Below, in pieces: positions 35,195 through 63,897 of a stretch of 64,000 nt of DNA. Position numbers and translations under genes: made by a program. A model generated the notes under the pieces. That model had not been told where the DNA came from and did no database searches. It saw only the letters and a list, made by a program, of their open reading frames with translations. Numbering within the stretch: position 1 is the stretch's first letter; every line of letters begins with the position of its first letter. Source of the stretch: Sistotremastrum niveocremeum HHB9708 (Eukaryota > Basidiomycota > Agaricomycetes > Sistotremastrales > Sistotremastraceae); the NCBI GenBank assembly GCA_001630475.1, contig KV419434.1, positions 113,528 through 177,527 of the forward strand. The letters are read 5' to 3'.

Positions 35195-36584
35195 TTATAC
35201 GGCGTCTCTGATGTCTTTGATATCGCCGAGAACCCAGTAAGCCCTGGCCAGACATGAATAGAGGTAAACTACAGAACTTAGAGCTTACTGATGCAGATCC
35301 AAAGTTTTCGTAGACGGGTCGAAAGGCGCTTTGCGGTAAATACCAGAAGAAATACCGTCTAGCGGAATCGTGAGGTGAACATCGTTCCCCATGCCATGGA
35401 ACGGAATCTTGAATTCGAGATGATACTGTCATCAAGACGATGAACAACTGGAGGCACAGGGGCAGGGGTTTCAACGCGCCGTTATTCGTAGCTTAGGGAT
35501 ACCAAAAGTCGGACTGCATCTGAATACAATATTTGACCTGAAAGTTACTTCTTGCCACCATCTCCCTTCATGTTTTAAGCCGTGGTGTTGCAGCCAAGTT
35601 GGAGGTCCTATGTCGGTTTGGATATGGCTTGCCGGGCCGTTCGTTGCAGGATGCATTTTCCCAAAGCCACCTACTGAGCCAAGATTGCTACTGTGTTCGG
35701 AAATATCGTAATGGCAGGTCCTTATCAGGTCAAGCTCAACAGCGTTAGGTGTGCTTGGCGGCAAAGGAAAGGTGAAATGCGATGAATTGGCTCCATGAGA
35801 ATGCGGCATCTCTTTTGAGAAGCATTTTACGTGAACAGTGATTGGGATATCTGTAAAGAGAGGAAAGCACTCTACAGCGGGTAGAAAGACCTATCAAAGG
35901 CTCAGTTGATTAGGTTTCGCTTACTTTCGATAAGTGAAGACACGAACCTCGGCTTCGACGTTGCCATATCCTCCCATGATACCTTTTCTCACCGGTATCT
36001 CCGTAGCGTGACGAGCAACAGGCATATACTCCAACGGCGCTCGTGGTGGAAGGTCATCAAAAGGCACGAAAGGAAATGCTTGAACGACGCGAATATGAGG
36101 ATGCGTGATTCCAGACAACTTCCAGCCTTTCAATCGCCCCGTTACTCGCACGAAATATCTGACTGCGGCAGACATGGATACTGCGATACTTTGATAGGAA
36201 GGAGGGAGTGGATGTGTGGGGAAGTGGAATGCGAATGGACAGCGGATGAAGCCTGCTTGGACTATGTGGCCGTACATTGGAGGTGCTTTGGAATCCCATA
36301 GCGTTTCTTTGTAATCTAGTAGGATTTCGCGCATGACGGGAGTCGTATGTGTTCCGTTTTCCATTTGCTTCATTTCCACCCTATTGAAAGTCAAATCTCA
36401 AACAATTCATGGAGTCGAGGGTCACCTACCCAGTCGCAACTGCCAGAAGCTCAACATGAACGACCGACAACTCATGACGCGACGCCTGATCAAGATGAAT
36501 CCTAACCACCCCTTTAACTCCCGTACCCGGCGTCCTCAGACTACTATCCATCTCAATGACGAGAGTATCTTGATGTCCAGTCAT
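35195..36584 (-). CDS. Arrestin-like protein 1
   Basis: Member of a local family of seven arrestin-fold proteins. The N-terminal sheet is seen in RTPGTGVKGVVRIHLDQ and VVHVELLAVATG. The middle exon has PLPPSYQS followed by RYFVRVTGRLKGWKLSG, and the C-terminal arrestin domain has IPITVHVKCFSKEM and GRWWQEVTFRSNIVF. Five exons give about 400 residues. The last intron (donor gtaagc) joins LDLHQ to AYWVLGDIKDIRDAV, so the PPxY motif present in sister genes is degenerate (HQAY). If that intron is kept, translation stops at once (CAG TAA). The start chosen is MTGHQDTLV; another ATG lies 36 bases upstream. Role as a ubiquitin-ligase adaptor is doubtful without the motif. Confidence 0.75.
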
Positions 36585-38661
36585 CGTTGTGGCAGCTCTT
36601 TGGATGATAGTCCTGAGCATTCGCTGAAAATTGCGCCTCCTATAAAACGCCCATCAACGATAAGGAGGCTGTCCTCATTGGTATTGTTGAGGGTCCATAC
36701 AGCCTCCGATTAAAATTGACAGCAGCTGTCTTAGCACCGCCACGGTTATTTTTAGCTCTGGCGTTTTGGCGGAGGCAGTGGTCATGCCAGAACAGGCAAG
36801 AGGATGAGCCACGTTCATAGTGGCCTAATCATCTGGGTGTTGAACATATAATGATGGCCCGCTTTTTTCGTTGATGGGAAATTGATGCAGGATTTCCTGA
36901 AGACCAGAGAGCTGAAGTTCCTGAAGATGGACCATTGACGGATTTGGGCAAGTGAAAGTCTGCAAGTCGAGACCAAAATTCGGCGATTTCCGAAACCCCT
37001 TGACGTTTGACGATGGTAGCGGTGCTTGCGCGCCTAAGTCCCCTCCTCTGCATCCTCACCCTCTCAGCAAAACGCGTATTGTCCAAGGTATTTTCATTGC
37101 GCTCGAGGACGTTTGAGAGCTCCAAATTGATCACAATATTATTACATTGGTAGATGACCGCCTGCACTACAAGTTTACAACAGCATCGGGCTCACATCGA
37201 ACAGCCATATCCCAGAATTATCTCAACGGACATAGGCCGCAAAACTTTTGGCATTGTTTGTACCATATGATTTGAGTCAGAATACCAGACAAGGGGAATG
37301 GGAGTATCCCAGGCCGGGGTGAGATTATTCAGCAAGCCTTCATCGTACAAAACCGGTCGAACGACTCGGACGAGAACTTGCGCACACAGAGTGTCAGACC
37401 CGTGCCGCGTGCCGGTAAGGACAGAGTAGTCATCGTGAGGCATAACAATAAACGGTCAGCTACGCCAGGTTCACCCGGTTGAATCTTTTTTTTTTTGGCT
37501 GAGAAACTTGTTATCATGAGCATCCACTTTGAAACACCCGAGAGAAAAGCACCATGCACTCTGAATCTCGAACTGGGAGGTGCCATGATTGAGAACACAG
37601 AGACAAAGAATGACATAGAGGTGAACGAGAATGCCGAATGCTGACGTCGGAGCACATCCTCGAGGATCCAAGTCACGACGCGACCACGGCAAAACACTGC
37701 AAGCATTGAGCAGCCAGTACTACGAACAGCTATGTCTTCAGAACATGCATGCGCTTCCAATCAAAACTTGAACCCGCGAACATGGGAACAACTTAAAAGC
37801 ATCTCTAGTCTCGAAGCCGGGTCAAAATTTCTCAAAAATCACCAGTCAGGAGGCGAGTTGTCGATGTGACGAGCCCAGAGCTGCTATCGGTCATTGCACA
37901 GCAGGCATGAAGTGGATGATTCAGTGCATAAATTCTGAAATAAACTTGTAAAGATAAATGACTTCTATCCATTGGGATCAATGGATAAAGCCTGAAGAAT
38001 CTGCTTACATTACAGGTTTTTTCAGCGTGAAAGCCGTCTTTGCAAATAATTCAAGGATTTTACAGAATATATCTCACTGACCAAATAATGCAGTGCTTAG
38101 TTATCTCTACAAGATATTTTCAAAAATTTTGCGCTGCATCATTGCCCTCATGCCCGCAGTGTTGGATACTGATTGGGCTCTTGGATAGAAGAAATATTTT
38201 CGAAAGCAGGCAACGACGCAGGGCGCAAAACTAAAATTTTAGTCGATGAATTATGCAGCGGAGCCTGACGGGCAATTATCGGTCCGACCGAACTTCGACG
38301 TGCGAAAGCACTCCCAAAAGAAGGGAAAAGAAGAGCGAGCGTGGGTATTCATCTCCATAAAAGGCGATTTGCAAGGCACGTCCACGATCATCGTCCAACA
38401 AAACCCCCTCTAGCAAGAGGAGGGGATCTTTGTTGACGAAATCAAGCAAATTCAATGAAGTTAGAAAGGCTAAGAACTCCACGCGAGACAATACAACATT
38501 TTTTCCACAGGACTACAGTAGCGATGAATACAAAGAGACAAGCGAATAAACTCGAAGACATTCTAAAGAGCAAAGACATGCTTTTTCCGTTGACCGGCTT
38601 TCCTTATCGAAATCTCAATTAATATTAATATAGCAATACTTCGAGCAGTCAACCCTCCTGT
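36585..38661. other. 2 kb region without a convincing gene
   Basis: Several minus-strand open frames (36829-37167, 37192-37443, 37329-37760, 38276-38491) lack family features or clean splice joins. AT-rich stretches occur around 37920-38240 and a T-run near 37487. It could hold decayed gene remnants between two arrestin genes. Confidence 0.35.
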
Positions 38662-40062
38662 TTATCTTGATTCAGAGGGTTCGCTTGATACAGTGCTCTG
38701 ATTGTCCGACTCTGCAACCTCCCAGTACGATCTGAGATCCAGTGTAAGCCAAAAGCTAAAGAAACTCTGGAGGAAGTGATCTTACGGTGGGAGATCCAGC
38801 ATCCCATGGGCTATGTCATGCGTCGACTTCGACATGCCAGAAGAGATGCGAGCAAGAGGAACCGTCATGCTAAACTCGTTCCCTACGCCAGGGAATGGAA
38901 TTCTAATCTGGATGTGATACTGTGCAAACAATCAGGAACATGTCTGAACGATTGTCGAGGTTACGTACGCTAGTCTGAAGCAATCCAATGTCGAAAGTCG
39001 GAGGACATTTCAAATGCAGAGTCGAGTTGAACATGACCTCTTGACACCACCGGCCTTGCCTCGAATCGCCGATGCGAACCCAGCTGAGGTTACCGCGCAA
39101 AGGTTCAACCACGTAGTGGTCGGAGCATTTCGATTTTGTTTGTTTTGAGAATCCTTGAATGGAGCCCTGTTTGATTTGAACTCGCTTCCAATGCTTCTGA
39201 GCGGCGAGATTCGATAATGATAGAAGTGACATGTCTATCTGATCTGAGCTCGATGGCGGTAGAGGGAATGTAAAGAGGGAAGGATTCGATGATTGCGATT
39301 CGGGCAAGGGTTTGGAGAAGCATCGGATGCGGAGTGAGAAGGGAATATCCTGGAACAAGGGAAGGCTCGTAACATCGGGAAGAGAGAACTGCAGGACCAA
39401 TCAGGACTCGAGGGCGGAGCTTTGGGACTTGAGAAACATACCTCTCCTTCAACCTTGCCCATACCGCCAAACATCACACCCTTCCTCAGCATCAGGTGAT
39501 CCTTGACGATGCGTCGGGGAGCATGTATCAGAGGATACTGAACAGCTTCTCCGAAAGGAAGGTATGCAAAAGAGCGATAAATCTTCAGGCCGGACTTATA
39601 CCAAGCCTTCTTGTTGGCGACAATCTTGACGTAATATTGAATCGAAGCCGATGCATCGCTGCCTTCGTACAGGAACGAGGGCGGTAATTGGCGATCAGGG
39701 AGTAGGAATGAGAATGGTGCAGTGATTATTGTGGATTCTGGAGGCGTTCTAGCATCTGCGGTCCAAAGCACAGATTTAGAACTGACAAGAGTGTGCTGCT
39801 CGTTGAAGGTCAGCGGTTGAGAGAGTTTATCTTCGTCAACTCGCCTAGGTCGTGATTAGGCGTCTGCAAAAGTTGATTGAGGTTCACGAGAGACGTACGT
39901 TTTGACCTCTGCGATGAGCTCAGCCGTGACCACAGTGAAGCCCTTGCGAGCTGCTGTAGCAAGGTTGATCGAGACCCGTCCGTCGACTAAAGACCCAGGG
40001 AAGCGAAGCTCGGGGTTGAAGTCAAGCTCCACGCCAGAGTCATTAATAGTACAGAGAGACAT
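38662..40062 (-). CDS. Arrestin-like protein 2, with PPxY tail
   Basis: Exon plan as in its paralogues: N-terminal exon (ELRFPGSLVDGRVSINLATA, VVTAELIAEVKT), then a middle exon with LPDRQLPPSFLYEG and IQYYVKIVANKKAWYKSGLK, then SLPLFQDIPFSLRIRCFSKP, GRWCQEVMFNSTLHL, and exon 4 (YHIQIRIPFPGVGNEFSMTV). The last splice (donor gtaaga) forms LDLPP plus SYWEVAESDNQSTVSSEP, creating a PPSY motif that would bind WW domains of Rsp5/Nedd4 ligases. Keeping the intron gives CCG TAA and a protein ending LDLPP. About 400 residues. Probable adaptor for ubiquitination of plasma-membrane cargo; cargo unknown. Confidence 0.8.
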
Positions 40063-40810
40063 GGCGTTGCAGAGGATAGATGTGGCAAGGACGACGGAGT
40101 GGGATGGTATTATGAAGTTAATATAGGAAAGGGGGGTGATCAGAGGCCGCGTAAGCAGCCAGTGCTTTCATCTGCTTCAAAAGAGATTGCTAGACAGGAT
40201 CAGCGGGCATCTAGCCGATGACTCCTGAAGCCAAGTGACTCGGTTGAGCGCTACACTTCTGCGGTTCCTTGAAACGATGATGTACACAAATAACCGTCGG
40301 ACAGCGAACCAACGGAGCGAAATGGATTCAAGTTAGAGCAGGCGAGAAGGCTCGAGCGCACTTGGCATGAAATTCGACTACGGTGGAGATGCGAAAATTG
40401 TGATAATATTGGCAATTCGTCTTGCACGTCTGTACTGAATAAATAAAAAGGTACCGAAAATTTAGGAATTTGTACGGATAAGCGCCGAGGCGCTGGAGTC
40501 ATCGGACAGATTCGGACTGGGATCAGCCGTCGGATGTAACTCAGTTGCTACCGGCCCGACCCCGGGGTAATCCTGCTACAGCTGTAGCAAAAAATTGAAG
40601 GGAAGTTGACGTGATGCGGTGCAAAGGGCCAAGGAAGCCCGATAATGCGCTCAGATGCGACTGAGAACCCGCTGTCACACGTATAATCTTGGAGATCAAA
40701 TAAGTATTCCGCCGTCAGTCGGATATTGATTCTCTTTTAAAGAGTCTATAGGACGATATGACCTCCTGCGGTCGACGAAGGCAAAGCACTTTTATTGATG
40801 ATGGATCAAT
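40063..40810. other. Promoter region of arrestin-like gene 2
   Basis: It lies between two same-strand arrestin genes. Only short chance frames are present; the 83-codon minus-strand frame at 40251-40502 has no family features. Confidence 0.4.
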
Positions 40811-42246
40811 TCAGCTTTTAGAGTCCTCCATGAGGGATATATCTGTGGTTGGAGCGACGGCTTCCCAGTAAGTGCTGAAATAGAAATTGTACCTATGTGA
40901 GAGGGCGGATCGTATAAGTAACTGATAAAGAGCTGCGCACGGCGGAAGTTCGAAGGCTGCTGCGCCAGAAGTACTTGGGCGGAAGAGCCCTGACGAGATT
41001 GCCAGTCCTTCTACCTTCATCTTCAGATCGTTGCCTAAACCTGGGAAGGGGACGCCCAGCTCGAACGTGTACTACATATAACACGATTAATCCCTATCCC
41101 AATTTCAAGCAATGCAAGACTCACTTGGACTCCGAGCATCGCAGTGCTGAAACTGGGAGGCCAACCATTCAATCGAAACGAAGAATGATAAAGGACAGTT
41201 TGACTCCATCGTCCTTCTGCTGACTTGTCTGATTGTTCCCAGATAGGATCCCCAATCTCTGATCGGATAACAGGATGCATTTGATCATCACTCGATTGAA
41301 CACCAAAGCCACCGAGATGTGGATACTTCTTCGTCGAGCTCCTGCGATCTCCGCGTGACTGTACCGATACATGTTCTTGCAGTTCAAATTGGATACGATC
41401 CGAAGATAAGGGTGGGATCGGGAACATGAAGGTCGAGGGAGAAGTTGAAGATGCTCGAGGGAGAGGCTTTGAGAAGCAGCGGATGCGGATCGAGAGGGGT
41501 ATAGGCTGGAATGCTGGTAATGCTTCCACGTCTGGGAGATAAATCTATATTTCCTTAGATTCTAGCAGATCAAATGGAAGATTTGGGGAACTGACTTCGG
41601 CTTCAACCCTCGCTTCGTCGCGGAAGATCGCGTTGCGTCGCATCTGAGACTCCTTCCTGAACGATCGTTGCTGCGCAAGCGATATCGTGCCGGGTTCGCT
41701 CCTTTCCCAGGGCAAGAACTTGAATGACGTCCGGATTTCAACGTTGGGTTTGTACCAGGCTGATTTGATTGCGACGACTTTGATAAAATATTGAACTTGG
41801 CCCGCGATGTGATAGTCGCTGTAGGAGAAAGAAGGAGGCAGGGTGCGGTGTTCAGGGATCACGAACGAGATTGGAAAGGAGGACATGGCTGGAAGTGTCC
41901 CTAGCTCTTTGGAAGGTGTAGGTGTGTCTTGAACTTTGCACACGTTGGTTTTGAGATTCAAGAACGTTTGAGTCTCTTGGTATGAAGCTACGGGACCAGT
42001 GAATCGTCCGCTCTCGATAAATCCACTGTAGGAGCTCTATTCATCCCCCGACCCTCGGACAAGACAATGGTTCACTTACCACTTCACGAGTCCCACCAAC
42101 TCAGCATAGATCTCTTCGATGCCATCGCGTAACATCCTAGGTATATCAACCTTCACTACGGCCTGCACTGTCGCCCCAGGACCCCAGACATTGCTTGCAG
42201 AGCTGTCGATCTCGACAGCGATTCCCTTCTTCTCATAAGTCGCCAT
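40811..42246 (-). CDS. Arrestin-like protein 3, with PPxY tail
   Basis: The start gives MATYEKKGIAVEIDSSAS, with the N-arrestin strand GPGATVQAVVKVDIPR and AELVGLVKW. The middle exon carries EHRTLPPSFSYSD and VQYFIKVVAIKSAWYKPNVE. Exon 3 carries LPAFQPIPLSIRIRCFSKPL and GRWSQTVLYHSSFRL. Exon 4 has PFPGLGNDLKMKV. The last intron (66 bases, donor gtgcgc, acceptor tttcag) joins ELPP to TYWEAVAPTTDISLMEDSKS, giving a PPTY motif. That intron is a multiple of three without stops, so retention would insert 22 residues and destroy the motif while keeping the tail. The second exon's first half is less clear than in its sisters. About 400 residues. Confidence 0.75.
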
Positions 42247-42743
42247 TTAGGGGTTGGGTGTATGTGATTCGCATTCCTTGAGTGCGGAGATTATTTATGA
42301 GGCATGGAAACGACGTGGTAGTTGAGCAACTTGAGCTGGCGCAGTCGAGGAAACGATGTTCGCCGCCGCGTGGTCGGCGTCTTGACTAAGAGCCGATTTT
42401 TTTGCTCAATTTCCACAACATTTCCTGTTCTCCCTTTCGGCCGATCTCAAAGCTTTGCACCTAGCGGAAGACCATTTTATGATAATAAGACGTGCATGAA
42501 GTTGGAATTTGAAATATTTTGACGTGACTCTGGAGTGACTCAAGCGGAATCTGAAATTTAAGGTCTTAACACCTTAACCCTTGACTTAACCTCGACATGC
42601 TGGTCGAACATCCTTTCCATCTAGACACGAATGAATCCAGGTGCAGGCATTGAAATGGATTAGAAGTCAATACGACCTATCGATACCTGTCGGACTCTCC
42701 GCAGCCTGCTGCTTGGCCTTCCGGCTTTGGCTTGCTCGCAGTG
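42247..42743. promoter_or_regulatory. Divergent promoter of arrestin-like genes 3 and 4
   Basis: This 497-base interval separates two diverging start codons. It is AT-rich near 42490-42570. I see no TATA box at a convincing distance on either side. Confidence 0.4.
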
Positions 42744-44212
42744 ATGGCTCAGTTGGCACAACGAAGAGCTGGATGCCTCGCGTTTCTGGATTTGAGCGCT
42801 AGTAGACATTCAAAAGACCTCGGTGAGTCAACTGAACACCTGTTCTTTCTCTCCTCCCTTCACCACTCCCCATGTTCCACCGAAACAGCCCTCCCCCCGC
42901 TTCGTCTCTCCACTTCACTCCAGGACTGAGAACGCCAGATGGTGATATTCGAGGCATCGTCTCGATCAATCTGCATCAAGCATCCCTCCGACATGTTCAT
43001 CAAGTGAAGATCGAGTACTATGTTACCCTGAAAACGTGTGTCGCAGTCGCTTGAAATTTCCTGAACTATTCGAGCTAACGATACACAGGCTCGTCAGTTA
43101 CAAACGTGGAGATCCCAGCATGACGAGTCGATATCGAGAGGTCCTCTACAGGAGGGAAAAGACGATCTGGGAATCACCAAATCCAGCATCGCCGTCGTCC
43201 AGCTCAGCAGAGATATCAATTCCCTTCAGCTTCTCCTTCCCAAGTGATCGCGACCTCCCGCCTTCATTCAACTTTCAGGAAACGCGTATCACCGCACGTG
43301 TCCGTCACGGAGTCAGCCTGTATGAATACCGCCGCGGTCATTCACAAAGTTTCGTGGAAGGACGATCTTTTCGTTTCCTTCCGCTCGATAACCCGCCCGC
43401 CATGCGCATCGAACAATTGCCGCGACGCTTCTATAGTCTTGAGAAGGATCTCCGTCACTGGTTTGATTGGCACGGCGGCAGGGTAGAAGTCAAGGTATGA
43501 CATAATATCCATGGCCCGAGAATTTTTACTGAGAATGCACAGTCTTGCATGCCAGACCTCCACGCCATCCCTCTACTCCAATCCATCCCCATCTCTGTAC
43601 ACATTCGATGTTTATCAGGCAACCTGCCCAACGCGTCTCGTTCTACATTCCCCCGCCTTCCAAATCATGCATCAGATATTCACCTCAAACTTCAGTGCAT
43701 AGGCAAGGTTCGAGCGGGACCTCACGAGGAGGAGTTCAAGATTAACTACCATTCCATATCTGGATTTGGGGACCCACATATTCGCTCAAACGCTGAAGTC
43801 ACCCGACCGCTATGGATTCCAAACTCCGACGGGGTTAGCGGACGATGGTCCCGGGAAGCCGTCTTCCATACCAATATTTTCTTGTGCGCAGGGATTACCC
43901 CGTCCTTCCGTGTCAAATCTGGACATCTTTCCATCACGGTAAGTCATTCCGACGTCATACCCGTCTAGAAGTTATTTGACAATTCTTTAGCATCAACTTA
44001 AACTGAAGATTCCCTTCTCTGGGCTGGGAAATGATTTCAAGATGGTCATACCAGTGCGCGTATCCTCTGGAGTATACCAAGGCATCCCTCCCCCCTATGA
44101 CTTGGTCCGTGAAATGCTTCCGTACGTCTTTATCGCCATTCGCCCCTGTGACGTCCTCACGCGTGGCTTCAGTCCTTATAACGAAGAAGACGATGGAGTT
44201 AGTAGTGATTGA
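42744..44212 (+). CDS. Arrestin-like protein 4, with two PY-type motifs
   Basis: Exon 1 (MAQLAQRRAGCLAFLDLSAS) splices to GLRTPDGDIRGIVSINLHQA, the N-arrestin strand. The next exon carries DRDLPPSFNFQ and the region equivalent to YFVKV, but altered (VRHGVSLYEYRRG). Exon 3 carries LLQSIPISVHIRCLSGNLPN and GRWSREAVFHTNIFL. Exon 4 has HQLKLKIPFSGLGNDFKMVI and then GIPPPYDLVREMLP, a PPxY motif (PPPY) inside the exon. The last intron (51 bases, donor gtacgt) joins to PYNEEDDGVSSD, making a second, LPxY-type motif (LPPY). Because 51 is a multiple of three, retention stays in frame. It is the only copy with a PY motif that does not depend on the last splice. The start is uncertain; other ATGs lie nearby. 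Confidence 0.7.
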
Positions 44213-44609
44213 GATTTCTCCACCACCTGTACTGCGTTGACCGCGTGCACTATCTACTTTAGCTTTTTGCTTTATCATCCATGCTCGTTGATTCGTCCAT
44301 CCCGTTGTTCTATCGATACAACCCGTCATTGATGGAACTTGACCATCCGATAATTTTGATACCGCCATCCGCCTGGCAACATCTTATCAATAGACATTGG
44401 TATTCCTGAATTTCACTCGACTGTTATCTGGCAGACAAGCGCCTGCTTTGCTTATAAAGTCCGATACCGGTATCCCCGAGGCAGAAGCTTATGGGAGTTC
44501 CGGCTTCTGACCTAGCCGGCCCGAGCGCGTGTGACCCTTAGTCGCCGTTCAACTCCTTATATTAAAAGAGCCTTAGCACGATGAGGCACCCGACTGTATC
44601 TCACCCCCA
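44213..44609. other. Spacer and promoter of the acyl-CoA ligase
   Basis: No gene is seen. A tatattaaaag sequence at about 44558, roughly 50 bases before the next start, could be its TATA box. Confidence 0.45.
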
Positions 44610-47152
44610 ATGGCGACCTTCAAACCAGCTCGGTCTTTGGAAGAATGTCAAAAGCTACTAACAGCTCCTGGCTCCCTACTCGAGCTCGACACGGTGGTCA
44701 TCAACGGAAGAAAGACGACTGTGTGGAAAAATCTGTGGCCTAATCTGCGAGCGTATTGGATGCTTTATGGAAAGACGTGGTCGGCACGGGAGTATGTTGT
44801 GTTTGAGAATGAGAGGTATACGTATGGTCAGATGTTTGAGAAGAGTAGCAAGCTGGCGAGCATGTTGAGGGAGGTTTACGGTGTCAGGAAAGGCGATCGA
44901 GGTGCGACTCATTCACATAGCACGCCCTTTGTAGACTGACCCTTCATCTCGTCCAGTTGCAATCATGATGCGAAATTTCCCTGAATATATGTTATGTTTC
45001 TGGGCTGCATGTCTTCTCGGAGCAGTACGCATCTTGAGCTCATGTCCGTAGTAAACCCTATTTGGCTGATCGAACTCAACTCAGGTCCCAACGCTTCTCA
45101 ATTCCCTCCTCCCCATCAAACCGACAAAATACTGTATTCGCCTCACGGATCCTAAAATCCTAATTCTGGATCCTGAGCGTGCTGAAACTCTCGCTAGTCA
45201 TATTCCATCCCTTTCTTCTCGACTGACCACTTTCGTGATTCGGGACCATGAACTTCACCCTCCGAACAAATCAATACGCGGCATCGTATCTCTTCAAAAG
45301 GCCCTTGAGAAGTACGATGGTCCGCTAGATGCCTGGCAGTTAGAACCGGAATGCACACCCGAGGATGACGCTGCCCTGTATTTCACGAGCGGTACAACGG
45401 GTCTGCCCAAGGGTGTCTTGGAATCTCAAAGAGGCGTTCTTTCAAATACTTTTGATAGTATCTATCATACCTTCCGAGCCTTTCTTCGTCGCGGGGAAGC
45501 TATTCCTGTACCTTCGCCGACGGATGAGCAGAAGGTTCATCTTCTTGGAGTTCCTTTGTTCCACGTCACTGGATTGACAAGTTTGGCGGTGCGTAGCCTT
45601 TCCTAATTCTAGGGCTATTCGCTCAATCTTATCATTAGGTCGGGATCACGTTTCAAGGGACTAAACTGGTGCTGGTTCGGAAGGCGAGTATCAATAAGTT
45701 GGAATACCATCCTTTGCTTATGCTCTTAATAGTGGGATCCTGAACAAGGTAATATACAACGCTTTCGTCTTCAACCCTCATTAATGACGACTATCTCTAA
45801 GTCGGACGGCTTATCGTTGAGGAGGGTATCCATGCTACAACGGGAGTACCATCCACCTTACTCGACGTGCTCGACTCTGCTCCTATCAAAAGTAACCCTG
45901 TTCTTAATATTGCCATTTTACGTACTGAAAGCACTCAGGCGGCAAGAAAACCAAACTCGAATATCTCGGAGGCGGTGGCGCAGCTTTTCCTTCGATGCTC
46001 GCTCCTGAAGCTGTGCGGCGGTTACCTGGGAGCACTGTGTGAGTCGCTCACGATCAATGTCCCAAAGACTGCTTGAGTTCTGATATGCATCGAAGTACGC
46101 AGGGGTACGGTCTGACAGAAACCAATGCCATCGCCGTCAGTTTCTCGGGAGAAGATTTCGTCGCTAGGCCATCCAGCACGTATGCTACCTTCCTCGTGCA
46201 TCTAATTCCAGCTGATTTTTCGCCAGAGGACTACCTCCGCCTGTCACGGAGATAAAGATTGTTACTACCGATACGGGGAAGAAGCTTCCAGCGGGAGAGA
46301 TTGGAGAAATATTAATGTTCGTACATTGTGAATGCTCGATCGAGTCACGCCCTCATTGAATCCTGAAGCCGCGGAGCCAAACTCATGAAAGGATACTGGA
46401 ATGACCCTGGTGAGTCCTTCCCACGATCACGATCCATCGAAGATCTCACGCAGGCGGCAGAGGCTACTCGAAAAGCGATCACAAAAGACGGCTGGTTTAA
46501 ATCTGGAGACTTGGGATATGTCGACGATGAAGGATTCTTATATATCAAGGATCGGGGTGAGAAAATCATCCTGGATATGGACCATTCGTCTTATTTCCTA
46601 ACCGTGCGATGTAGCGAAGGATATTATTATTCGTGGCGGAGAGAACATTGTGAGCCCATAACATTAAACATTTATTACAGAGGTCTAATCATGAGTTACT
46701 CAGCACTCTGTGACCGTTGAAAACGCCCTCTACTTAGATCCTCGCATTATGGAGGCTGCTACAGTCAGTGTTCCTGATAAGCGGCTCGGAGAATTAGTTG
46801 GTGCCGCTGTTTTATTGAAACACGAATATCGAGGGAAGATCACGGAGGCAGATATCATCCAGGAAGCAAGAAAGCAGTAAGTCTCGATCAGCGTTCAATG
46901 CACAACACAGACGCCAGACTAAGAGCGCTCTTTCAGCCTTCCCCCACATGCCGTCCCTGTCATTGTATATATAAGCGACGAGCCGCTTCGTGAGTCATCT
47001 CAGTTTCAGGGATTGTGATTGGTATTGATTATCGTGCAGCGAGAAATGCCGCTCGAAAGTTCTTGAAGTCAGATATTCGTAAGATCGTTCGTAAGGCATG
47101 GTCGCAAAGACAGAAGGTCGGAAAGAGCGCTGGCACTCGAGCAAAACTTTGA
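44610..47152 (+). CDS. AMP-forming acyl-CoA synthetase/ligase
   Basis: Activates a carboxylic acid, probably a fatty acid, to its CoA ester via an acyl-adenylate. Motifs in order: the P-loop-like YFTSGTTGLPKGV, LGVPLFHVTG, EYLGGGGAAFPSM, QGYGLTETNA, FKSGDLGYVDDEGFLYIKDR joined by splicing to AKDIIIRGGENI, and the C-terminal hinge with the catalytic lysine in PRNAARKFLKSDIRK. More than ten short introns; around 600 residues, normal for the ANL superfamily. Several exons are tiny, so ORF fragments look broken, but the frame restores cleanly at each join I checked. It sits inside the arrestin cluster with no obvious functional link. No peroxisomal signal is clear at the C-terminus (GTRAKL is a weak PTS1-like ending). 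Confidence 0.85.
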
Positions 47153-47698
47153 GCTTTAATGGAGGAGGAACTGGGCTATCAAATCTTGATCTAAAGTTAT
47201 ATACTGTTACGTGTAAGAAGTGTAGTTTTGAATAGGGGCCCTTCGAGAACGGAGATAGTGCCTGCGGACTTGACATCGGAGTTTCCTTCCATTCCTGGTC
47301 AGTCCCCTCCCATCGGTTCTGCGGCCACCCCCCTAATGAATGGCCCTGTCCGGGTGTACGTGCTTCTCGTGGTGAGACGAGACGAGAGGGGGAGCGTTTG
47401 CTCCGTTCGTTATATTATACCGACTCAGGACCTCGATCGCGCTGTCCATCAGCCTCCTTCACGGACGACACGTTACGAAGCCTTTAGCAGTTTGCTGATT
47501 GAAATCGCATAATCCAAGTCGGATCTGAAGGAATAGTCCACCTATTGTTCTGCGGAGATCAAGCATACCGACATCTGGGTCAGACTAATTTTTTTGTGTG
47601 AGCTTTACGCAGGTTTGAACGAGTACGGTAGGCCGTTTAGCATTGTGTATGATGTGTACTCATTCGTCCATGCGTTCTAGTGTAAAATATTTTCAGAA
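47153..47698. other. Spacer upstream of arrestin-like gene 5
   Basis: It contains a 94-codon open frame (47228-47512) with no recognised features. It probably holds the 3' region and promoter. Confidence 0.4.
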
Positions 47699-49102
47699 AT
47701 GACTACTTCGAGATGCGATGTATTCTCTCTTGAGATGGACGACGATCTCAGAATTCCGGGCTCCATGGTCTCCGGATTCGTGGACATAAACCTTTCACGC
47801 GCGTTCGAAAAGAAAGTCAAGGAAGTTAGTGTGATGCTCGTTGGGGAAGTGACTACGTAAGCAAACAGAATATATACTTCCGAATTACAAAAAAATGACC
47901 TCTGATATTGCAGGAGAGTCTCGCAGACCGGTTTCGATACCAGCACGTCCGAGGAGGAGAGAAAATCCTTTATTGAGCAGAGGACTTCGTTATGGGAACT
48001 TGAGAAATCGCCTCCACCATTCAGCTCAAGCTCGGATTCAAACATTCTTTCGATCCCATTCGCTTTCGAGATACCGGACGAGTCGCTTCCTCCGTCATTC
48101 TGGTGTTCAACGGCAGAGGGTTGCGCGTTCGTGAAATACTTTGTGAAAGTCACCGCCTTCAGGGATGCGTGGTACAATTCGAATGTATCAATATCTCGAC
48201 CATTCCCATTCACTCCGTTCGATGACTCTGTTTTGTTGACTGATAGCGCAATTTCTTGCGCTGCTCGTGGAAAACACACGGCCCAGAAGTTGATGAGAAA
48301 AGGCGCATTATTCGGAGGGAGGGGGAAAGTGGAGGTCGATGTAAGCTGCTTTATTCCACCATAACGTTTGTTCCTCATTTCCGATTAGTTCTTCGTTCCT
48401 GGATTGCCGGTCATGCCCCAACTTCAGAGTATACCGGTCACAGTAGCCATCCGATGCTTCTCAAAGCCTCTCTCGAGCTCGCACTCCAAAGACCCATCTA
48501 AATTCACTTTCCCAAAACCTCCGGCTTGTCCTCGAGAAATCGCTTTGTACCTGACTTGCGTCTGCGATATTCGCGCACAACATTACGAGGTCACCTCCAT
48601 CGCTAGTCAGAAGCCGATCGGTTGTTTTGGGAAGCCGGCAAAACGTTTGCCCGACGATGCTTTGGCCGAGCGTGTCCGTGTGGCTGTTGAAGAGCCTGTG
48701 TGGTACCCCGACGAACAAAATTCCAAGGAAGGGAGATGGGGACAAGCTGTCGAATTATCGACTGAAGTGGTACTGTGTTGTTCGTCATCTTTTGATGTTG
48801 ATATCCTGAAGGTCAACGTACGTATTTACTCCTTTCATCATGCCTTCACTAAACAATGGTTGTAGTATCAACTTGACCTTAAAATATCCTTCGATGGGTT
48901 TGATAACGAGCTTGAGATGACGATCCCGCTAGGTCCTGTGTCTAGTGGGTTGTATAGGGATCAGCCTCATGATCACCTGCCTAAGTTAGATCTGCCGCCG
49001 TGAGTTCATTATATTCCCGAGCCAATCTCGTTCACTGATTCTGTCTACAGAGGATATTGGGAGGTCGTTCAAGTTGTTGAGGGCAAAAGTGCTGCCCAAT
49101 AA
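47699..49102 (+). CDS. Arrestin-like protein 5, with PPxY tail
   Basis: The clearest member of the family. The N-terminus reads MTTSRCDVFSLEMDDDLRIP, then GSMVSGFVDINLSRAF and VSVMLVGEVTT. The middle exon has PDESLPPSFW and VKYFVKVTAFRDAWYNSNVS, ending GGRGKVEVD. Exon 3 has MPQLQSIPVTVAIRCFSKPL and GRWGQAVELSTEVVL. Exon 4 has YQLDLKISFDGFDNELEMTI and ends KLDLPP. The last splice (donor gtgagt) supplies GYWEVVQVVEGKSAAQ, forming a PPGY motif. Retention would give CCG TGA, a protein ending exactly at LPP. About 405 residues. N-terminal identity to gene 6 (MTT...FSLE) shows these two are close tandem duplicates. Confidence 0.8.
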
Positions 49103-49455
49103 ATTGTGCTGGGTACACTTTCTGCCAGTACAGTGTCATCGAGTACTGTAGCAAGTGTAGTCTTAGATACAGGACCATTTTCGGTGAAAATATTTGGATT
49201 CTTGATGTCCTGTAATATTCCCTGCCCATGAGATACAGTTCGCCCAGTCCCTCTTATTTGTGTGCTTCGAGAGCGTCAAAGGCTATATTTGGCTGAAAAT
49301 ACAGGTTTCATACGTAAGCCACTACTGTTCAGAGCGTTCCAAGCACGTTCTCTGGGTGTTGCCATGGTACTACGCCACATCTTGCTATCCCGAGTCTCTT
49401 AAGACCCGATCGTACGCTGCACGAAGCTTCCTGGTCATTCGGTCTTTACATCCAG
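49103..49455. other. Spacer between arrestin-like genes 5 and 6
   Basis: No gene is supported; a 73-codon frame at 49260-49481 runs into the next gene's start out of frame. Confidence 0.4.
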
Positions 49456-50877
49456 ATGACTACTGCAATGCTTCGAGGTGAAATGTTCTCCTTGGAATTT
49501 CTCACGAATACGGATCCGCAGTCGACGATCGGAGGGTTAGTACACGTTAATTTCAAAAAAGTCATCGAGAAGAAGGTTCAAGAGATCAGGGTTGAGTTGA
49601 TCGTCGAAGCCAGAAGGTGAGTGACAAGATCTCAGAACCTAGTGAATTTGGATTGAAAGGAGGTGCATAGCAAAGTGGCGGTCGGAAACGACTCTCCGGA
49701 CGAGGCGTCCGAGGTTCTGGCTCGATTATATCCTATGAACGAAATTCTTTGGATCGCCACGAACGATGAAACTTCACTCAATGATTTGGCCCTTTTGGAT
49801 CACAAAACATTCGATTTTCGGTTCAGCCTTTCAGACACCGACAACCCTGATTCCATCCCACCACCCACATTCTCATTTCTGAGCGGATTTGCATTTCCAA
49901 TCTCCGAGGCCTCAATCAGTTATGCGATCAATGTGATCGGGAAACGGAGCGGTCAATGGTCTTCTGATATTCGTCTCGACCGGAAATTCAATTTCCTACC
50001 ATTGGATCATACGTCACTCGTCCCTCAAGATTTCGATCATGGCAAAATTTGGGGAAGGTTTCAGCAGTCTGTACGAAGCTGGAAGGATGCACTCAGATCT
50101 GGAGATGGCGGAAGAGTCGATTTGGAAGTGAGTCCACAACCTGTGAAAGGTGACTTAGTCTCACCATGCTCAGTTCTGGGGCCCAGACGTGAAAAGTCTC
50201 TCTTCCTTTCAAGCAATCCCCATCTCGATCACCGTCAAATGTTTTTCTAAGCATATGTCATCATCGCGCAGTACAGATCGTTCCGCCTTCACTTTCCCTC
50301 TCCCTCCTAAAACACCTCTCGATATCGAACTTCGATTACGCGCCATCTGCTCAGTCACCGCGAATGAACGTCAGTTGACAAAATCCAAGGATATCGCTTC
50401 TCTAGGACAATTCGGTCGAGCCAGTCCAAGCTCGACGTCCAAGGGATCATCACAGGATATCGTGACTGACGCAGTTGAGCCTACTTGGATAGCAGGCGCA
50501 TTTGGTACTTCACCTTCAGGAGGTGGAAGATGGCGCCAGACAGTTTCATTTCGCACTCACATCGTCTTGAGCTGTGCGCCTACGTTCGAAACTTCTCTGG
50601 ACAGCAGCCAAGATCTCTCCGTCCCTTCGAAGTTAAGAGGAAGGGGGAAAATTACCTTGGAATACGAGCTCGTCCTCAAGGTGTTATTTCCTGGATTGGG
50701 GAACAATGTGACTGGCATCATCCCATTGAAAAACCTTACATCTGGACTGCGACAAGGCCAAACTATTCCGGGTGTGGATGCCTCTCAGTGAGTTTACCTA
50801 ATTTTCCTGTGATCAACTTTTAATAATCGCGTAGAGGATCTACGAATCAAAGCCCGGGTTATTCCATAGGTCTATGA
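49456..50877 (+). CDS. Arrestin-like protein 6, no PPxY
   Basis: The start MTTAMLRGEMFSLEFLTNTD aligns with gene 5. The N-arrestin strand follows (GGLVHVNFKKVIEKKVQEIR, VELIVEARR), then a diverged middle exon (SGFAFPISEASISYAINVIG, KRSGQWSSDI), then FQAIPISITVKCFSKHM, GRWRQTVSFRTHIVLSC and YELVLKVLFPGLGNNVTGII. The last intron (donor gtgagt) appears to join VDASQ to GSTNQSPGYSIGL, ending at 50877. Without splicing the stop is at 50791. Neither form has a PPxY. The usual LPPSF signature in the middle exon is also lost. About 420 residues. Likely diverged after duplication. Confidence 0.65.
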
Positions 50878-51868: not shown

Positions 51869-54203
51869 ATGTCTAATCAGGTCATCGTCGTTGGAGGTGG
51901 TCTTGCCGGTCTTTCGGCGGCTCATACTCTCCTTGAGAGAGGAGCTAATGTATTGCTGCTCGACAAGCAAGGGTGTGTGCGGCATTTGCGCTTTATCGAA
52001 CTACAACTGATCTTATGGCTGTAGATTCATGGGAGGTGAATATTGTATCATATGTGTCCAGAGTTTGAAATGCTGAAAGCGTCGTTTCAGGAAACTCGAC
52101 GAAGGCTACGAGGTACGTTGAATGAAGCTCGCAAAGTCGCCACGCATTAACTGGTCTCTACAGTGGTATCAACGGTGCTGGAACTAGCACTCAGCACGAC
52201 CAGAACATCCCTGATAGCGCCAAAATCTTCTTCGAGGACACGAAACGATCAGTGCGTGGCCGGCCCCTAATCCTCGGAGCGCCTAGCTGATCTGTAGCGT
52301 TTCACAGGCTCGCGATCTTGCCCGAGACGACTTGATCAAAGTCCTTACCGGCCGCTCTGGTGATGCCGTGAACTGGTTGCAAGAGAAGTTCGCTCTGGAT
52401 CTCTCCAAAGTTGCCCGACTTGGTGGTCACTCGCAACCGCGTACCCACCGTGGTGGCGCTCAGTTCCCCGGCATGGTCATCACCTACGCTCAGCTCGAAC
52501 GCCTCGAAGATCTTGCCGCTTCCATCCCTGACCGTGTCCAGATCAAGAAGAAGGCTCAGGTCACGAAACTCATCCAGGAGAACGGAGCAGTCGTCGGCGT
52601 CGAATATTCATTCAACGGCAAGACTGAGACAGCACTCGGCCCAGTTATTCTTGCTACCGGTGGTTACGCTGCTGATTTCACCTCAACTTCGCTACTCAAG
52701 AAGTATCGCCCTGAGCTCTGGGATCTCCCCACCACCAACGGCGACCACTGTACCGGCGACGGTCAAAAGATGGCTATGGCAATCGGCGCTCACGGTATCG
52801 ATTTGGAGAAAGTTCAAGTGCACCCCACCGGTCTTGTCGACCCCAATGAGCCGGGCGTACGTTGTTTCTCCTGAGTCCCTGATGCGATCACTGACGATCT
52901 ATATCTCCTTTCCAGGCTAAAGTCAAATTCCTTGCTGCCGAAGCTCTTCGTGGTGTTGGTGGTCTCCTGCTCGATAACGAAGGCCAGCGATTCGCTGATG
53001 AGCTGGGTCATCGTGATTACGTAACTGGTCGGATGTGGGAAAACGGCAAGGTCGGCTAACCTTATTTTGGTCGCGTGGCATTCCTGATCCAGTAATTCCA
53101 GTTCCCGATCCGCCTCATCCTCAACGGCCAGGCATCCAATGAGATCGAATGGCATTGTAAGCACTACGTTGGCCGTGGCTTGATGAAGAGATTCGAGAGC
53201 GGCGCTGCTCTTGCCAAAGAGTGGGGTATCGATGAGAAGGTCCTCAAGAAGACTTGTGCGTCTAGCCTCTCACGTCGATTAAATTTTCTATTTGCTCATC
53301 GATGTTGCAGTCGACGACTACAATGCTGTTGTTCGTTCCAAGAAAGACCCCTTCGGCAAGAAGTTCTTCCCCGGTGGCGAATTCAGAATGGACGACTTCT
53401 TCCACGTCGCACACATGACCCCTGTCCTCCATTATACCATGGGTGGTCTCGAAATCGACCCCGAGTCCCGCGTCATCAGCGAGCAGGGCAAGCCCATCCC
53501 CGGTCTCTTCGCCGCCGGTGAAGTTGCTGGTGGTGTCCACGGTGCCAACCGTCTCGGTGGTAGCTCATTGCTTGGATGTGTCGTCTTCGGTCGTGTATCC
53601 GGTGATTCGGCAGCTGCTTACCTGCTCCAGACATCCAGCAGCGCATCTGACAAGGCTGCTGGTCGTTTGGGTGCCGTTTCTGGGCATCTTTTGGAGACGA
53701 AGGTGAAGATCGACCCCAGTGCTCAGACCGTCAACCTCGAGTTCTCTTGGGCCAACGGTTCTACCTCTTCATCGTCCACCTCCGCATCTTCATCCGCTCC
53801 TTCCCCTTCGACTCCAGCTCCCGCTGCCTCGTCTGGCGGATCTTCCGAACCTGCTACTCAGGACGCTGCCGAAGAGAAGTCCACTTCTTCGGAGTCCGGA
53901 TCTTCAGGACAATACACTGTCGAAGAAGTCAGCAAGCACAACAAGAAAGACGATGTATGGGTGATCATCGATGGTCAGGTTCTGGACGTTACCAAGTTCC
54001 TTCCTGACCACCCCGGAGGCGAGAAGGCCATCCTCCTGTACGCCGGCCGAGACGCAACAGAAGAATTCAACATGCTCCATGATCCTAAGGTACATTATCT
54101 TCCTCAATATCAACTGATACGAGTGCTGATCGCTCCTCTTTCGTCCGCTTAGGTCATCCCCCGATACGCAGCAGATTCTGTTATCGGTGTTGTGAAGAAG
54201 TAG
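51869..54203 (+). CDS. Fumarate reductase-type flavoprotein fused to cytochrome b5
   Basis: FAD-dependent enzyme reducing fumarate to succinate, of the soluble Osm1/Frd1 type. N-terminal FAD motif [19 protein letters not shown], then two tiny exons giving [20 protein letters not shown], the substrate-site region HPTGLVDP, and the end of the FAD domain [18 protein letters not shown] Ser/Ala/Pro-rich linker of about 70 residues follows, then a cytochrome b5 domain ([20 protein letters not shown]) with haem histidines in [10 protein letters not shown] and the NMLHDPKV segment. About 650 residues, roughly eight exons. No signal peptide is seen, so a cytosolic location is likely. The b5 domain implies an electron donor other than free flavin. 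Codon use is strongly biased to C-ending codons, unlike its arrestin neighbours, suggesting high expression. Confidence 0.9.
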
Positions 54204-62999: not shown

Positions 63000-63897
63000 C
63001 CTTGATACCCGATATTCAGCCTGTGTCTGACTTTGCATTCACGTCCTGCACAACTTCACTCCCGACAATTCATCGACTCGTTGAAAGAATACGAAAAGAT
63101 GGGAATTAAACTGGAAGTCGGATGGATACCGAGCCACAAGGGGATTGAAGGAAACGAGAGGGCAGACGAGCTGGCGAAACAGGCAGCGGAACAGGAACCC
63201 GAAATTGAGAGATGGCCGACATATGCATATCTGCAGAGGACGGCAAAGGAGGAGGTGTTCTCGAGGTGGAGAGAACAGTGGGGAGAGGACCAGATGACCA
63301 GACGATACGCAGCGGCGAACACACAGGCACCAACCCGAAAGACCAAAGAACACTTCCGCAACCTTCCACGCGAACTTTACGGAAGGGTCACACAGTGCAG
63401 GACGGGACACGCATTCATTGGAGAATACTACGCAAAATTCGTACCATCGGAATCCAATGAATGCCAGTGTGGACACCCTCATCAGACACGAACACACATC
63501 CTCCAGAACTGCCCGAGGCACGACGAACACCGAAACATTCTCACCGATTTCGACCCAGAAATCTCGATAACACGACTCTTAAACGAAGAGAAAGGAATAG
63601 CCGCCCTCGCAGAATTCATGCGACTCACGGGAGCCTACACAAAAACGGGAGAGCTCGCTGGGCCCACCCTCGCCAATTTATAATTTTTTATTCCAAAACC
63701 AAAAGCCACAACACAACTTCCAATTCCAAAGCCCACGCGAAACACTACTTTCCAATTCCCCAATCCACAGATTACAATTAAATTAGAACTGTATAATTCT
63801 AGATTACACCCCCAGGCCCGGTCTCACGACCGGACCCCCGCTACTTAGCACTCGTTTGCTTAACGCGGGTTATAAATACAAACAACAACAACAACAA
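63000..63897 (+). mobile_element. 5'-truncated LINE (Tad-like) with RNase H
   Basis: The 3' part of a non-LTR retrotransposon. It holds the end of ORF2, a 3' untranslated region, and ends in a short (aca)n tail at about 63876-63897 rather than poly-A, as in several fungal Tad-group LINEs. A perfect 6-bp stem (ccggtc-tcac-gaccgg) lies near 63818-63833, about 60 bases before the end. The reverse transcriptase and endonuclease parts are missing, so this copy is dead by 5' truncation. The left boundary is approximate, lying just after the previous gene's stop at 62952. A six-base match, acgtcc, at both edges is too short to be called a target duplication. Confidence 0.75.
63033..63683 (+). CDS. 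LINE ORF2 C-terminal fragment, RNase H domain
   Basis: The frame contains the last part of an RNase H domain (VGWIPSHKGIEGNERADELA, with Asp and His positions typical of the family) and a downstream region ending in a zinc-knuckle-like C-x-C-x2-H...H-x4-C cluster (ECQCGHPHQTRTHILQNCPR). It ends TLANL at a stop at 63681-63683. The frame is open from its truncated start, so no further damage is visible in this part. Such a fragment cannot direct transposition on its own. Confidence 0.75.
   Translation: MHSRPAQLHSRQFIDSLKEYEKMGIKLEVGWIPSHKGIEGNERADELAKQAAEQEPEIERWPTYAYLQRTAKEEVFSRWREQWGEDQMTRRYAAANTQAPTRKTKEHFRNLPRELYGRVTQCRTGHAFIGEYYAKFVPSESNECQCGHPHQTRTHILQNCPRHDEHRNILTDFDPEISITRLLNEEKGIAALAEFMRLTGAYTKTGELAGPTLANL

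Follow-up and report, generated by a model that had tools for sequence, protein, structure and literature searches.

Six divergent alpha-arrestin-like paralogues were found clustered at positions 35195–50877 of the window, a 64,000-nucleotide stretch of contig KV419434.1 from the basidiomycete Sistotremastrum niveocremeum HHB9708. Gene models were built by hand from the raw sequence of both strands, with introns placed so as to make the paralogues align; all splice sites given below are modelled under this homology guidance and their support is computational only. Three of the genes lie on the reverse strand: gene 1 (35195–36584; 394 aa), gene 2 (38662–40062; 396 aa, five exons, tail LPPSYWEV) and gene 3 (40811–42246; 403 aa, five exons, tail LPPTYWEA). 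The forward strand carries gene 4 (42872–44212; 378 aa, five exons), gene 5 (47699–49102; 399 aa, five exons, tail LPPGYWEV) and gene 6 (49456–50877; 424 aa), the last of which is without the third intron. Genes 2 and 5 have their stop ends at positions 38662 and 49102, respectively. The spliced models of all six genes are open from end to end, and the predicted proteins (378–424 aa) share 25–35% pairwise identity. Two neighbouring genes were modelled as controls: an AMP-binding enzyme gene with 13 introns between genes 4 and 5 (44610–47152; Pfam AMP-binding, 1.7e-15 for a single ORF), and, downstream, a partial fumarate-reductase-like FAD gene (from 51869; four introns modelled; Pfam FAD_binding_2, 6.4e-24 for a single ORF).

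The spliced models of genes 2, 3 and 5 are backed by Pfam, with Arrestin_N scoring above the cut-off in these three of the six proteins (3.1e-07, 5.3e-06 and 3.3e-07, respectively). The same domain reached 20.5 bits in gene 1, under the cut-off of 24.9, and was weak in gene 4 (E 0.24, 11.8 bits, also under the cut-off); the Pfam search of the gene 6 protein returned no match. Arrestin_C was found in one protein of the six, that of gene 5, where the best stretch (residues 19–149) falls in the N-terminal half. Among the models, that of gene 5 has the best support. A profile of all six proteins searched against solved structures gave three sequences in total at E up to 1, namely 7usy, an ARRestin Domain protein chain (2.3e-06), and the ARRDC3 chains 4r7v (0.005) and 4r7x (0.0058). 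Visual/beta arrestins have an N-domain helix I, which alpha-arrestins lack. By similarity, the cluster appears to carry the Arrestin N domain expected of an alpha-arrestin (ART), with genes 4 and 6 placed as putative members only through their alignment and common introns. Alpha-arrestins are also marked by C-terminal (P/L)PXY motifs (PMC2515105); a motif of this kind was found in the tails of genes 2, 3, 4 and 5 and not in those of genes 1 and 6. Scans of other collections recovered no relatives: exon 3 of gene 2 gave eight pattern matches in viral_contigs and no match by tblastn against plasmids, and exon 3 of gene 5 gave 52 pattern matches in genome_contigs, with zero relatives among either set of pattern matches. 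Few relatives were to be expected, since these collections consist of prokaryotes and their viruses and plasmids.

The six proteins were searched for [PL]PxY, with Q, V or A also permitted at the first place (none of these variants was found). Seven [PL]PxY matches resulted, and in four of them an intron falls after nucleotide 5 of the 12. The intron-cut matches are PPSY of gene 2 (38790–38725), PPTY of gene 3 (40945–40868), LPPY of gene 4 (44117–44179) and PPGY of gene 5 (48995–49057). As the earlier note had claimed, the last intron in the models of genes 2, 3 and 5 is in phase 2 and splits the second proline codon (CC/x) of the tail PPxY, with the reservation that the acceptor of gene 3 is uncertain. 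These introns measure 54 nt in gene 2 (38732–38785, reverse strand), 66 nt as modelled in gene 3 (40875–40940, reverse strand) and 51 nt in gene 5 (49000–49050, forward strand). The companion claim, that LPPY of gene 4 arises at the corresponding junction, was confirmed by mapping the motif back to the genome: it forms over the homologous junction, with a 51-nt intron (44122–44172, forward strand) in one of its proline codons. The last intron of gene 1 (35244–35288, reverse strand) shares its aligned column and phase with those of genes 2–5; the homologous junction there reads LHQAYWVL, so that YW is kept, both prolines are gone and no tail PY motif is present. In gene 6 the last intron (50788–50834, forward strand) is likewise in phase 2, seven aligned columns off in a poorly aligned tail, and the junction of the spliced model reads DASQGSTNQSPGY, in which no PY motif was recognisable.

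The three unsplit matches had escaped the original observation, which listed the four split ones correctly. Gene 4 carries PPPY (in PPPYDLV) entirely within exon 4 (44087–44098, forward strand), beginning 10 residues ahead of LPPY, and gene 1 carries PPMY (36272–36283) and PPSY (36194–36205), both in exon 2 on the reverse strand. As modelled, the proposal that the motif exists only in spliced mRNA holds for genes 2 and 5, and probably for gene 3; it fails for gene 4, where PPPY is unsplit. A family-wide splice dependence was rejected on the same ground, and the idea does not apply to genes 1 and 6.

Splice sites were scored in each gene with the gene itself left out of training. Using site matrices alone (18 or 19 training introns per test), the last-intron donor came first among local GT candidates in 6/6 genes. 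The last-intron acceptors of genes 1 to 6 ranked 5/10, 8/18, 9/17, 2/11, 2/18 and 4/10, and the modelled donor–acceptor pairs ranked 3, 4, 3, 2, 1 and 3, i.e. first in only one gene. The pairs that came top by sites alone would leave gene 2 with no PY motif, give LPPY in gene 3 and leave gene 4 with the unsplit PPPY only. When terms for intron length and branch point were added (36 or 37 training introns of 40 per test), the modelled pair came first in five genes (1, 2, 4, 5 and 6) and fifth in gene 3. The 40 introns have a median length of 53 nt and range from 45 to 66 nt. The ranks are supportive, not decisive, and neither scoring amounts to independent proof, because the training introns are our own homology-guided models and the branch-point matrix was written by hand.

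Gene 3 is where the models are least secure. Neither scoring puts the PPTY-building acceptor first, and PPTY is uncertain since the top pair under the extended scoring has its acceptor 18 nt upstream. This best pair starts the exon at 40892 and gives LPPYNFYFSTYWEA. It is possible, if rather unlikely, that the tail of gene 3 is made, always or in part, through the upstream acceptor, with LPPYNFYFSTY replacing PPTY. A branch-like CTTAT lies at -23 of this acceptor, which takes the top score against rank 5 for the modelled intron, and by sites alone it ranks 2 to the modelled 3. It would also yield an intron of 48 nt; the modelled intron, at 66 nt, is the longest of the 40. Against it, the upstream acceptor puts six extra residues into a block that is conserved in genes 2 and 5, and its ranking rests on the hand-written branch matrix and on training introns chosen by homology. 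Both acceptors preserve the YWEA frame. A motif of the LPxY type (LPPY) would still result from the upstream site; LPxY is a degenerate class described in yeast as an Rsp5 specificity determinant (PMC1557994).

The position of the last intron is part of a wider pattern. Introns fall at a common aligned column and phase in 6/6 genes for the first intron, 6/6 for the second, 5/6 for the third and 5/6 for the last, and this sharing across paralogues points to a single ancestral intron through a single ancestral motif. Independent origin in three genes was rejected, given four intron positions that are each common to five or six of the six genes; the intron is probably older than the cluster. An intron inserted at random would land inside a 12-nt motif ∼3.6% of the time, and as one inherited event with this prior, the intron in the motif is not striking. 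Eight motif patterns, which we take to be hallmarks, were also placed on the two control genes, and introns cut three of the eight and left five intact: GGNSTKATSGING was cut by two introns, and RAKDIIIRGGE and GGENIHS, which overlap, by one each. With three of eight control patterns cut, introns through functional motifs are not rare in this neighbourhood, as far as a sample of two genes can tell. Given the common intron positions and phases, the cut control motifs, the unsplit PPPY of gene 4 and the acceptor ranks of gene 3, the proposal that splicing "creates" the motif in some special sense is not supported.

We therefore favor the reading that these are ordinary alpha-arrestin PY tails for Rsp5/Nedd4 docking, crossed by an inherited intron, which we consider very probable. 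Under such a history, the ancestral gene would already have held a phase-2 intron inside the LPPxYWEV tail block, and duplication within the cluster would have passed it on to the paralogues. The last intron would be removed constitutively, yielding PPSY in gene 2, PPTY (or LPPY) in gene 3, PPGY in gene 5, and LPPY alongside PPPY in gene 4; in genes 1 and 6 the tail motif may have been lost or never present. The tails would recruit the local Rsp5/Nedd4 ligase through its WW domains, and the recruited ligase would ubiquitinate membrane cargo bound by the arrestin fold. Binding to Rsp5/Nedd4 WW domains had been predicted before and would be a fair expectation from the alpha-arrestin literature; splicing in the cell, WW binding and adaptor function are what we infer for these genes from their models. 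Several observations count against this explanation: by splice sites alone the modelled pair led in a single gene, Arrestin_C was matched in one protein of the six, genes 4 and 6 are without a significant Pfam hit, and the six last-intron donors have no G at exon position -1, so that their splicing might be less than constitutive.

A more elaborate reading makes the last intron a regulated switch, its retention producing an arrestin that holds cargo and is unable to recruit Rsp5, with genes 2 and 5 ending after LPP and gene 3 left without PPxY. We regard this as improbable, and give equally little credence to its cluster-wide form, in which the prolines of the PY motif impose a weak CC/GT exon end, removal of the last intron is therefore leaky or under regulation, and splicing switches between degradation adaptor and decoy. 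In silico, retention does end genes 2 and 5 at ...LDLPP-stop and gives gene 3 an open 22-residue insert that breaks PPTY. However, an instant stop is generic to any phase-2 intron whose donor starts GTAA, GTAG or GTGA, and retained first introns also stop at once in four of the six genes; in genes 1 and 6 retention of the last intron likewise led to an immediate stop, and in gene 4 it was in-frame and open, with PPPY kept. None of the six last-intron donors has G at -1, compared with 16 of the 34 other introns, and the mean U1 match is 4.67 of 9 for last introns versus 5.65 for the others, gene 3 being the weakest of all 40 (3 of 9). The CC at the exon end is fixed by the proline codon. Yet the intronic half of the donor is no weaker (4.67 of 6 for last introns, 4.53 for the others), G at -1 is equally missing from the last introns of genes 1 and 6, whose tails have no PY motif, and the paralogous donors are related rather than independent, in a small sample. 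The literature on Cryptococcus neoformans bears on both sides: intron retention is reported as the commonest form of alternative splicing, regulated by growth condition and mostly insensitive to NMD, but the same source states that alternative splicing adds little to proteome diversity in this species (PMC5006051).

The preferred reading also has the conservation of the motif itself in its favor. Across pairs of genes 1, 2, 3 and 5, the eight-residue block LPPxYWEV is identical at 30/48 positions, compared with 23/85 in the 15 residues upstream and 5/64 in the 12 downstream, and this block comes 14th among 383 windows. When all six genes are compared, identity is 50/111 in the block and 52/203 and 9/93 in the flanks, and the rank falls to 62 of 375. 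By alignment, the motif thus stands out as conserved where the rest of the tail diverges, though less clearly once genes 4 and 6 are included. The least credible alternative is that these are chance motifs in tails with no affinity for WW domains: genes 1 and 6 do manage without a tail motif and the six-gene block ranks only 62nd, but a chance origin was rejected on the local conservation relative to the flanks and on the low composition expectation (∼0.06 PPxY per protein), and the tail motif is already known from alpha-arrestins (PMC2515105).

The idea that splicing can decide whether a PPXY motif is present is not new. ErbB4 CYT-1 is a case of a splice-dependent PPxY. In AMOT, splicing sets the presence of PPXY motifs for NEDD4-family WW domains in the p130 and p80 forms; p80, from an alternatively spliced message, is described as lacking the PPXY motifs and did not co-precipitate with NEDD4L (PMC4337731). 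AMOT differs in that the entire N-terminal PPXY region is missing from the alternative message, whereas here one intron runs through one motif and the splicing is modelled by homology only. NCoR2 offers a likeness at the level of mechanism, its exon 37 CoRNR box being a short linear motif that is present or absent by choice of splice donor, although the motif is another one and the alternative donor is proven (PMC4554918). Two further candidates were set aside as parallels: the subtle splicing of CYYR1 adds or omits one Ala and is not placed in a PPxY in the available text (PMC1863428), and PMC11953613, in its available text, matched solely through a promoter called pPXY. For an intron-split PY motif across an arrestin family, no report was found among the matches listed, which comprised titles and the starts of abstracts in open-licence literature. 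Within those matches, the earlier note is borne out in knowing of no prior description across an arrestin family, but splice-gated PY motifs are known elsewhere, AMOT being an example.

Closer to home are the fungal alpha-arrestins/ARTs, such as Cryptococcus Ali1 and Ali2 and yeast Rod1 and Rog3, which share with the present genes the Arrestin N domain, a tail (P/L)PxY and an expected role as Rsp5 adaptor (PMC2515105, PMC11481503); four Ali proteins have been reported in C. neoformans (PMC6867901). Unlike these, the genes described here form a cluster of six paralogues, of which four have a common last intron crossing the motif and two have no tail motif. Human ARRDC3 is also alike in its arrestin-fold domains, and PPxY motifs of its C-tail bind WWP2 WW domains (PMC12213294). 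It has two PPxY motifs, however, whereas none of the present tails carries more than one (PPPY plus LPPY in gene 4), and the sequence similarity is weak.

Our analysis adds a fungal alpha-arrestin-like gene cluster with conventional PY tails. It also carries a caution, as an occasional intron through a motif is to be expected in intron-rich genes. Were the improbable retention reading true, intron retention in such fungi would turn off the recruitment of a ubiquitin ligase at the protein level.

Exon 2 of gene 1, one of the six divergent alpha-arrestin-like paralogues, was found to contain two PPxY matches uncut by introns, PPSY and PPMY (36194-36205 and 36272-36283, minus strand); this gene lacks the C-terminal tail motif. 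When the six arrestin-like proteins were aligned, the position of the gene 1 PPSY corresponded to LPPSF in four paralogues. A third intron was present in the other five arrestin-like genes and absent from gene 6, where the stretch concerned lies at 50174-50787 on the plus strand.

The arrestin cluster is interrupted between genes 4 and 5 by an AMP-binding (acyl-CoA synthetase-like) gene on the plus strand (44610-47152), which was modelled with 13 short introns. GC-AG boundaries were required in two of the 40 modelled introns: the third intron of gene 1 (35426-35479, minus strand; donor GCGCGT) and the fourth of the AMP-binding gene (45684-45732, plus strand; donor GCGAGT).

In the fumarate-reductase-like FAD gene, two modelled introns interrupt the hallmark motif GGNSTKATSGING (52032-52176, plus strand), and the cytochrome b5 domain of this gene is encoded in a downstream ORF. 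Lastly, an ORF on the plus strand at 63006-63680 had a match to RNase H (6.3e-07) and is perhaps a piece of a retroelement.
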